From: Elusimicrobiota bacterium
GTDB lineage: Bacteria > Elusimicrobiota > Elusimicrobia > UBA1565 > UBA9628
Assembly (NCBI GenBank): GCA_016218575.1
Contig: JACRDN010000019.1
Coordinates: forward strand, 62,001 to 126,000
Direction of reading: 5' to 3'
DNA length: 64,000 nucleotides
The position numbers and the translations under genes were made by a program. Within the stretch, counting starts at the first letter, position 1. Every line of letters begins with the position of its first letter. The notes beneath the pieces are model-generated. The model had not been told where the DNA came from and searched no databases. It worked only from the letters and a program-made list of their open reading frames with translations. Shown here one piece after another: positions 37,142-39,344 of this stretch.

Positions 37142-37576
37142 ATGACGGCTGAGGGAGGGCTGGCGCGGCCCCAGGATAAGCTCGTAATGGTCATTGACGA
37201 CGATGAGAGCGTGCGGGAGCTCCTGGAGTTCATCGTGGTCAAGGAGGGCTTCAAGGTGTGTTCGGCCTCGGATGGGGAGGAGGGTGTCAACAAGATACAA
37301 GAGCTGATCCCGGATCTGGTCATCCTGGACTTGATGCTTCCGCGCTACGGCGGATTCGAGGTTTTGCGCCAACTGCAGACCGGCGCCACGGCCGGGATAC
37401 CCATCGTCGTCATCACCGGGCGCTACACGGATCGGACCACGGCGGAGATGATCCGGCAGGAGTCGAACGTCATGGATTTTTTGGAGAAGCCCATCAAGCC
37501 GCAGGTGCTGGGCGTGACCTTGCACAAAATACTCAAGACCGCCCCGCCGGAGCTGTCAGGCGGCACAGGAAGCTAA
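37142..37576 (+). CDS. single-domain response regulator
   Basis: A 144-residue receiver domain without output domain. It has the acidic pocket IDDDES (20-22), phosphoacceptor D63 in LVILDLMLPRYGG, T/S in VVITGR and the conserved Lys in FLEKPIKP. It probably acts by protein contact. It is one base apart from a second receiver gene of ~45% similar layout, indicating tandem duplication. No cognate kinase is adjacent; orphan kinases lie at 4278-6262 and 50070. Confidence 0.92.
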   Translation: MTAEGGLARPQDKLVMVIDDDESVRELLEFIVVKEGFKVCSASDGEEGVNKIQELIPDLVILDLMLPRYGGFEVLRQLQTGATAGIPIVVITGRYTDRTTAEMIRQESNVMDFLEKPIKPQVLGVTLHKILKTAPPELSGGTGS

Positions 37577-37577
37577 A

Positions 37578-38051
37578 GTGGAACAAAACCCGGAATTCGC
37601 CCTGCCCGTCTTGGCCGACCCGGCCGGGAAGCTCGTTCTTCTCGTGGATGACGACGAAAGCCTCCTCGACCTCATGGAGCACGTGGTCCGCAAGGAGGGC
37701 TTCCGCACGGACCGGGCCGCCGACGGGGTCGAGGCCATCCGCAAAGTCGAGGCCTTGAATCCCGACCTCATCATCTTGGATTTCATGCTGCCCAAAAAGG
37801 GCGGCTACGAGGTTCTGCGCGATCTTCAGGCCGGAGGCCGCGGGCAGATCCCCGTAATCGTGATCACCGGCCGCCACATGGACCGCAAGAACGTCGACAT
37901 GATGCGCTTGGAGCCGAACGTCCGGGAATTCATCGAAAAGCCCCTGCGCCCGGCCATCATGGCTTCCCTGATCCACAACCTGCTCAAGACCCGTCCTCCG
38001 GACATCAATCGGGCTTCCGGCCGCGGGCCCATGAGCGGCGGGATCAGTTAA
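37578..38051 (+). CDS. single-domain response regulator (tandem copy)
   Basis: A 157-residue receiver starting with GTG one base after the previous stop. VDDDES, phosphoacceptor D68 in LIILDFMLPKKGGYEVLRDL, VIVITGRHMDR and FIEKPLRP match its neighbour motif by motif, so the two arose by duplication. The C-terminal ~20 residues are a Gly/Arg tail unique to this copy. Both are likely translated from the leaderless promoter at 37107. Confidence 0.92.
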   Translation: MEQNPEFALPVLADPAGKLVLLVDDDESLLDLMEHVVRKEGFRTDRAADGVEAIRKVEALNPDLIILDFMLPKKGGYEVLRDLQAGGRGQIPVIVITGRHMDRKNVDMMRLEPNVREFIEKPLRPAIMASLIHNLLKTRPPDINRASGRGPMSGGIS

Positions 38052-38058
38052 TACTCTG

Positions 38059-38319
38059 ATGCGCCGGGCCGGCCTGGCGCTCGCGGCGGCTTCCTGCCTG
38101 GCCGGAATTTACCTTCTGGCCGCCGCGGACCTGATCCTGCGCCAGCGAGCCGCGTACCGCGAAGGCCGGCTCTGGCTGGCGCGGGGCTCCGGGGAGACCT
38201 TGTGGGGCAGGCCCAGGGACTTGGCCTGCCTTTACTTTGAGTCCGCCGCCAACCTCTTCTGGCCTCCCGGAGGCCGCTGGGCGCGCCTTAGCCGGGAGAA
38301 ATTGAAGGAGTGCCGCTGA
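38059..38319 (+). CDS. small membrane protein of unknown function
   Basis: 86 residues with one N-terminal hydrophobic segment (LALAAASCLAGIYLLAAADLIL), either an anchor or an uncleaved signal, and a basic, Trp-rich cytosolic or periplasmic tail. No family recognised. It starts seven bases after the second response regulator. Its stop codon's last base is the first base of the 270-bp inverted-repeat element. Confidence 0.6.
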   Translation: MRRAGLALAAASCLAGIYLLAAADLILRQRAAYREGRLWLARGSGETLWGRPRDLACLYFESAANLFWPPGGRWARLSREKLKECR

Positions 38320-38588
38320 GGCCCTGTCAAGTAATAATATGATCAATTTGGCCGAGCGATTTTGGAGCGAGACAAGGAGCGAGGAGCGAGCATACCCGCA
38401 GCGGTATGTGAGCGACGAGCGACGCGGTCGCAGCCCAAAAGCGCTCGGCCCCTTCGGGGAGGCCCGAGCTTGGCCGATTTCTTCGTTGCTCCTCGGGCAC
38501 ATAGCTACCGCTATGCTCCCTCGTCGCGCCTCGAACTCGTCTCAAGCTCGGGCCTCCAAATTGATCATATTATTACTTGACAGGGCCT
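38319..38588. repeat. 270-bp palindromic element, three-way junction, MITE-like
   Basis: Perfect 33-bp terminal inverted repeats lie at 38319-38351 and 38556-38588 (AGGCCCTGTCAAG outward ends). Inside are two arms. Arm 1 is GGCCGAGCG at 38350-38358 with CGCTCGGCC at 38442-38450, then six more pairs after one mismatch, tip CATACC/GGTATG. Arm 2 is the 15-bp perfect pair 38458-38472 with 38543-38557, tip CATAGC/GCTATG. Small frames inside encode nothing credible. Each end carries an outward TTGACA. No target-site duplication or transposase is visible. Confidence 0.85.
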
Positions 38589-38600
38589 AAGGCACAGAGC

Positions 38601-39344
38601 ATGGCGCGCTTCTTGTCCGGCCTGGTCCTTATGCCGAGCGCTGTTCTCACCTTGGCGGCGGGCGTCCAGGCCCTGGCGCTCTCGGCCTGGCGCGGCCCCT
38701 CGGCTTTTCCTTTTTTCCTGGGGTTCGGGCTTTCCCTGGCCTGCGGGATTTGGGCCAAGGCGGGCAAGGGCGAATGCGTCGGCCCCGCGAGTTGGTTCTC
38801 CTCGCTTTCCCGCAAGATCTACGTTTTCGGCCATGAACTGACCCATGCCTTGGCCGCCTGGTCGGTGGGCGCGAAGGTCCTGGGCTTCAAGGTCACCGAA
38901 TCCCGGGGGCACGTGGACCTATCGCACTCCAACGCCTTCATCGCTTTGGCGCCTTACTGCGTCCCCATTTACAGCTTGCTCGCCATCCTCTCCTATCGTC
39001 TTTGGCTCTGGCTGCGCCCGGAACATCCCATGGAGCCGGCTTTTCTCTTCGTGATGGGGCTCACCCTTTCCTTTCACATGGCCAAGACTTTGGAATCCCT
39101 GTGGGCCCTCAAGCAGCCGGACTTGGCGGCGGGCGGGGGGATCGTGTTTTCCTTGAGCTGGATCGTTCTCGGCAACGGCCTGGTGATACTGGTCCTGCTC
39201 AAGACGCTTTTCCCGCGGTCGGTCGCCCTCCTCGAGGAACTGGAGTCGGTTTGTCTCGGGACAGGCCATTTCTGGCTCTGGATTTGGCGAGCCCCGGGGC
39301 CCTCTGCCTGGAAGTTCGTGAAGCGATTCTGGCGGGGCGCGTGA
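38601..39344 (+). CDS. membrane protein with HELTH motif (M50-like putative metalloprotease)
   Basis: 247 residues from ATG 38601; an in-frame TTG at 38577 lies inside the repeat element. Five or six membrane helices. YVFGHELTHALAAW near residue 80 is an HExxH zinc motif at a membrane face, as in site-2-protease-like enzymes. The third zinc ligand of M50 enzymes is not obvious, so activity is uncertain. Its stop overlaps the next gene's GTG start (GTGA). Confidence 0.65.
   Translation: MARFLSGLVLMPSAVLTLAAGVQALALSAWRGPSAFPFFLGFGLSLACGIWAKAGKGECVGPASWFSSLSRKIYVFGHELTHALAAWSVGAKVLGFKVTESRGHVDLSHSNAFIALAPYCVPIYSLLAILSYRLWLWLRPEHPMEPAFLFVMGLTLSFHMAKTLESLWALKQPDLAAGGGIVFSLSWIVLGNGLVILVLLKTLFPRSVALLEELESVCLGTGHFWLWIWRAPGPSAWKFVKRFWRGA

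Follow-up and report, generated by a model that had tools for sequence, protein, structure and literature searches.

A MITE-like element family of Elusimicrobiota with a conserved paired core

The 270-bp element at positions 38319-38588 of the analysed window, a 64,000-nt stretch of DNA of an Elusimicrobiota bacterium, represents a MITE-like superfamily of Elusimicrobiota, the unusual features of which are a conserved interior and the occurrence with several end types. The assignment to the MITE class is based on copy number, ends and target repeats. The element is short, present in many copies and devoid of a transposase gene, it is bounded by perfect 33-bp terminal inverted repeats, and its sister copies are flanked by direct target repeats. 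In addition, the paired core of what is likely a non-autonomous DNA transposon probably plays a part, as DNA, in its propagation. The interiors of MITEs are usually seen as filler left by the loss of the transposase, but here the interior shape is kept across the phylum, and a layout retained even when the ends change raises the question of what the interior of a non-coding transposon does.

All of the components listed in the earlier note, namely the perfect ends, the two long hairpins with similar 6-bp tips and the CCCC/GGGG mini-stem, were found in place (Table 1). The left apex stem is formed by CATACC (38391-38396) and GGTATG (38403-38408), the right one by CATAGC (38500-38505) and GCTATG (38510-38515), and the mini-stem by CCCC (38449-38452) and GGGG (38456-38459). 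Each hairpin overlaps the terminal repeat by two bases, and in the case of the left hairpin the overlap is able to pair either way. The longest inverted repeat reported for the window lies within this element. The element had been thought to begin on the last base of the upstream stop codon; since the direct TNA repeats of sister copies set the boundary of the mobile unit one letter further in, that triplet turns out to be the left target copy itself. An outward TTGACA is indeed present at each end of the window copy, but both ends carry it in just 18 of the 61 delimited copies, so the supply of a -35 box suggested earlier is not supported as a feature of the family. Just upstream, at 37142-38051, lie two consecutive response-regulator genes that encode a receiver domain only.

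Table 1. Parts of the element and their positions in the window.
Feature	Positions	Strand	Remarks
Mobile unit	38320-38587	+	268 bp; boundaries set by the TNA repeats that flank sister copies
Left TNA target copy	38317-38319	+	TGA; at the same time the stop of an 86-aa ORF (38059-38319)
Right TNA target copy	38588-38590	+	TAA; one letter off the left copy
Left terminal inverted repeat	38319-38351	+	33 bp
Right terminal inverted repeat	38556-38588	-	33 bp
Left hairpin	38350-38449	+	both arms contain GAGCGAG repeats; CATACC/GGTATG at the apex
Central mini-stem	38449-38459	+	CCCC/GGGG; insertion site for extra sequence in sister copies
Right hairpin	38458-38557	+	apex CATAGC/GCTATG; relative of the left hairpin in reverse complement

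The possibility of a single-copy sequence, which would have spoken against mobility, does not apply: the home genome (G000; 2.82 Mb in 23 contigs) alone contains 68 matches to the element, several of them full-length at 97-99%. Copies within one genome are 96-99% alike, which indicates recent spread, and a degenerate pattern of the ends gave 52 matches in the home genome versus one for the reversed control. Among the relatives, 19 of 37 genomes (the home genome included) match, and the left hairpin, searched for with a covariance model that was built from family members and yields rough E-values, was detected in 82 out of 340 genomes from this phylum and in 47 of 100 genera. In named genomes the core pattern was found in 24 stretches, mostly of Elusimicrobia MAGs, three of them in a MAG titled Planctomycetota. 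The latter genome has four model matches, and the locus L123 there has TAA on both sides; this presence may reflect an inter-phylum transfer or a matter of labelling. Three loci of this MAG (L123, L129, L134) have the same type of ends. No match was obtained for the exact 28-bp end in viral_contigs or genome_contigs (where the home genome is possibly excluded), for the whole element among phages and plasmids, or for the core pattern in viral_contigs, and no account of this family was found in the PMC literature. Judged by match coordinates, approximately 15 of the 46 contig ends of G000 fall inside elements, therefore the family fragments this assembly, and it marks many breaks in these assemblies.

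The mobility of the element is supported by its target sites. After the loci with other ends or partial sequence (L020, L044, L045, L067, L069) and those with weak terminal repeats had been excluded, 61 copies in 13 genomes could be delimited, 47 of which have an identical 3-bp TNA (TTA, TAA or TCA) on both sides, while 14 lack an exact pair; the window copy has a single mismatch. The target consensus is roughly CCTNAGG (45 of the sites with identical TNA). Together with the copy number and the relatives across the phylum, these direct repeats support the MITE-like mobile element proposed in the earlier note. Stop codons are overrepresented among the targets. Of 55 distinct sites with at least 340 bases of flank, 51 have a stop-type TNA, and in 20 of these 51 the triplet terminates, in frame, an upstream ORF of 300 nt or more, as compared with 49 of 652 flanking TAA triplets (7.5%; Fisher p 3.5e-9, the sites being partly related copies and thus less independent than the p-value assumes). 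The window copy is not among the 20, its 86-aa ORF being below the 300-nt cut. According to a crude ORF caller, 54 genes have their 3' ends turned towards an element, and 30 of them end no more than 5 bases from it. The excess of stop codons could arise from harmlessness or from target preference, and a preference for stop codons would be a simple route to harmless insertion.

Both parameter sets give the element a fold far more stable than those of shuffled sequences (RNA: -157.9 kcal/mol, z -12.1; DNA: -89.1 kcal/mol, z -12.2), although they disagree on its shape. For the window copy, the RNA minimum is the three-way form, whereas under DNA parameters one long imperfect hairpin, in which the left half pairs with the right, is the more stable (-89.1 versus -79.8 kcal/mol, a difference of 9 kcal/mol), because the two halves are reverse complements of each other at ∼71%. 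Comparative analysis was based on an alignment of 28 representatives (255-300 bp, less than 93% alike, mean column identity 71%). Its consensus structure comprises 84 pairs with 95.9% of the cells paired, so that the loss of pairing in relatives, named earlier as a point against the element, is not observed; 62 of the 84 pairs show two-sided changes (389 cells), none of 500 shuffles was as good, and slid versions were 32-42% paired. The two rival folds were both derived from the window copy (L001) alone, which avoids a bias towards the consensus structure, and were compared on the other 27 rows. The pairs found only in the three-way form hold in 85.8% of the cells with 229 two-sided cells, against 72.6% and 60 two-sided cells for those found only in the long hairpin. 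The three-way pairing is real, and the comparative data favour it over the single long hairpin. Hence, of the "perfect three-way junction" described previously, the junction is upheld by the RNA minimum and the comparison of copies, but DNA parameters favour another form and the internal hairpins of the window copy are imperfect. The GAGCGAG repeats would be expected to give tandem G.A mismatches flanked by G-C pairs; in two copies of the genome G035 (L083, L084) a fully complementary Watson-Crick stem stands in place of the GAGCGA arms.

The way in which paired positions change depends on the distance between copies, with the reservation that the copy-to-copy counts come from non-independent pairs. 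Close copies (58 pairs, identity of at least 95%) differ mainly by one-sided changes, both in the hairpins (136 versus 22 two-sided) and in the ends (56 versus 9). In copies at 75-80% identity, two-sided changes prevail (2125 versus 1182 one-sided in the hairpins, 2201 versus 406 in the ends). We read this pattern as decay in settled copies and matched arms in the propagating lineages. As to the level at which pairing operates, an RNA made from one strand would tolerate G.U but not A.C. The alignment contains G.T and A.C cells in the ratio of 10 to 9 in the end stem, 38 to 14 in the left hairpin and 37 to 11 in the right one, but two columns with a fixed G.T supply 24 and 27 cells, and the remainder is even (34 versus 34). 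This balance points to the DNA level, as it is unlike what is expected of a one-strand RNA. Among the single changes of close copies G.T outnumbers A.C (61 versus 36 in hairpins, 22 versus 11 in ends), which leaves some room for selection at the RNA level. The structured core is thus likely maintained as DNA; as for the "structured RNA/DNA element" of the earlier note, conserved pairing is supported by the two-sided changes of the alignment, but RNA is not singled out by the evidence.

Within this framework, a DDE-type transposase acting in trans would bind the matched ends, cut the element out and join it to a TNA site, three bases being copied in the process. Insertion into a TAA or TGA stop codon would re-create the stop, and copies in such places would therefore do no harm and be retained. 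The conserved core, consisting of the mini-stem and both internal hairpins, may, as a cruciform or a single-strand hairpin, be used in mobilisation or be tolerated by the replication machinery. Single copies would decay after insertion, while the lineages that found new subfamilies would keep both arms matched, and it is this presumed difference which suggests that pairing of the DNA plays a part in propagation. Arm-to-arm template copying is a possible way of restoring the pairing.

The same pattern of decay and matched arms could, however, be produced by template switching (PMC8794818) with no selection at all. Template switching during replication would equalise the arms of palindromes, the two-sided changes would be a mutational by-product, and the interior would be ordinary MITE filler. 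The process can create and maintain perfect stems (PMC8794818), two-sided changes far exceed one-sided ones between subfamilies, and one copy (L093) has an inverted right hairpin. Nevertheless, the close copies carry mostly one-sided mismatches, which means that repair is not fast, and the core layout persists through the phylum, so this explanation seems rather unlikely. As single copies decay whereas arms are matched between subfamilies, selection versus template switching becomes a testable question. Less plausible is that the hairpins are conserved because they act as RNA, as a 3'-UTR stabiliser, a terminator or a small RNA carried by mRNAs whose ends lie at the element. The RNA parameters favour the three-way form, gene 3' ends crowd against the elements as described above, and transcripts of the Correia/NEMIS and ERIC MITEs are processed (PMC2229807). 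In contrast, the region 38000-39000 of the window has no Rfam match over the gathering score, G.T and A.C are equal outside the two fixed columns, the orientation in tandem gene pairs shows just a mild bias (20 versus 12), and the element is nearly symmetric under reverse complement, all of which make an RNA role improbable.

Two further explanations have very little to commend them. A palindromic, multi-copy sequence that adjoins gene ends resembles REP/BIME-type repeats, which bear a GTAG or CGTC tag and are moved by a tyrosine (Y1/RAYT) transposase with no target duplication, but 33-bp terminal repeats and TNA direct repeats are not known as features of REPs, whereas the present element has the former and, in 47 of 61 copies, exact TNA repeats. 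The nested double hairpins of 57-66 bp in some copies are also similar to the CGTC-tagged REP dimers described in PMC3733652; even so, a REP origin appears highly improbable. The idea of a small gene, based on an 83-aa ORF across the element, finds some footing in the stop-free frame of at least 80 residues in 27 of the 28 representative elements. The longest stop-free stretch, however, varies in frame and strand among the elements (lengths 261 to 291), and the substitutions track the pairing, so that coding is hardly credible.

A transposase with matching ends, the search for which had been recommended in the earlier note, was not found. The domain models PF01609, PF13586, PF13359, PF05598 and PF07592 had no match in G000 or in the element-rich genomes G001 and G004, no family-type end pair surrounds the transposase at the 40 transposase-domain loci examined, and the exact end matches in G000 are either paired at a spacing of 48-330 bp, situated at contig ends or part of short remnants and broken copies, with no autonomous partner among them. 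Since assemblies break at repeats, the autonomous parent could be missing from them. The IS5 group (IS5/IS1031) and PIF/Harbinger-Tourist elements are characterised by a TNA or TWA target and GG ends. The element shares the 3-bp TNA target and GG...CC ends with them, but differs on the host side, as none of the 37 relatives has DDE_Tnp_1_2 or DDE_Tnp_4 and the home genome lacks DDE_Tnp_1. An IS1182-family IS of a relative (G010, L102) has ends, GAGCCTGTCCGAGTAAT, which resemble GGGCCTGTCAA..AAT, and TA-containing flanks; these are CTAG instead of TNA, however, and the ends match no subfamily seen. Derivation from particular insertion sequences was considered and found no support for IS5 (no PF01609 or PF13586 in G000), IS1182 (DUF772 absent from G000, G001 and G004, in addition to the mismatched ends) and ISAzo13 (its transposase occurs in 5 of 37 genomes, G000 not being one of them).

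Further close parallels come from other small repeats. In PMC2229807, Correia/NEMIS, ERIC and RUP are described as short non-coding MITEs located beside genes, with terminal inverted repeats, a TA target duplication and stem folds. The present element is likewise short, non-coding, gene-adjacent and stem-forming, with terminal inverted repeats and a TA-containing target; unlike these (<200 bp), it is 270 bp long, uses a 3-bp TNA target, keeps a three-way core phylum-wide with widespread two-sided changes, and has several kinds of ends. The CIR elements of Caulobacter and Brucella, conserved across genera, consist of two long stem-loop arms and a linker (PMC2229807). The same two arms joined by a linker are seen here, but CIR elements are without the closing stem of terminal inverted repeats.

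The ends differ between subfamilies and match within each of them. Outside the close relatives, 40 loci were examined, four of which end at contig ends and for all of which the model extends over no more than the left hairpin and the central stem. Among these, the core is flanked by CTAG on both sides, with ends beginning with TG, in L159, L170, L177 and L189, as it also is in L020 and, in the home genome, L045; it has TA-flanked ends like CTGAGC in L152, L156, L167, L176, L178, L182, L186 and L187. Copies reduced to the ends also occur (48 bp in L046, where TTA stands at either flank, 34 bp in L088, ∼39 bp in L090 of G035). Longer copies contain extra self-folding segments of 40-66 bp: L032 and L093 have one 57-bp module in common in the central loop, and other self-folding inserts are present in L033, L071, L074, L075, L078, L133 and L137 (z -3.8 to -8.2). 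Since the inserts of L167 and L189, the 16-20 bp ones of L014, L063, L086, L137 and L189 and the 33-bp one of L133 show no notable fold, a rule of hairpin-only inserts has exceptions. Going beyond the preferred reading, one may picture the core as a portable structured DNA chassis used throughout the phylum and carried by TNA-, CTAG- and TA-type transposases, with ends exchanged or re-evolved, arms active in mobilisation or replication and restored copy by copy, and added sequence tolerated mainly if it forms a hairpin; such a picture is speculative and, on balance, doubtful.

In G000 (contig C20; L087:1-1330), an AT-rich insert interrupts a copy that belongs to another subfamily; it holds a gene for a 370-aa AAA_16 ATPase, which was considered as a transposase but is not one by Pfam. 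Apart from coding matches and a tRNA-like hit, twin-hairpin scans of the window and the loci returned little, the detector being one that misses nested modules. In L093 (994-1320) the right hairpin is inverted between its own arms. The nested modules of 57-66 bp consist of two adjacent hairpins (L032:1135-1191, L093, L033:1172-1231, L071, L075, L078, L133, L137); several of them carry CGTCCC...GGGACG, and they are inserted inside elements with no bases lost.
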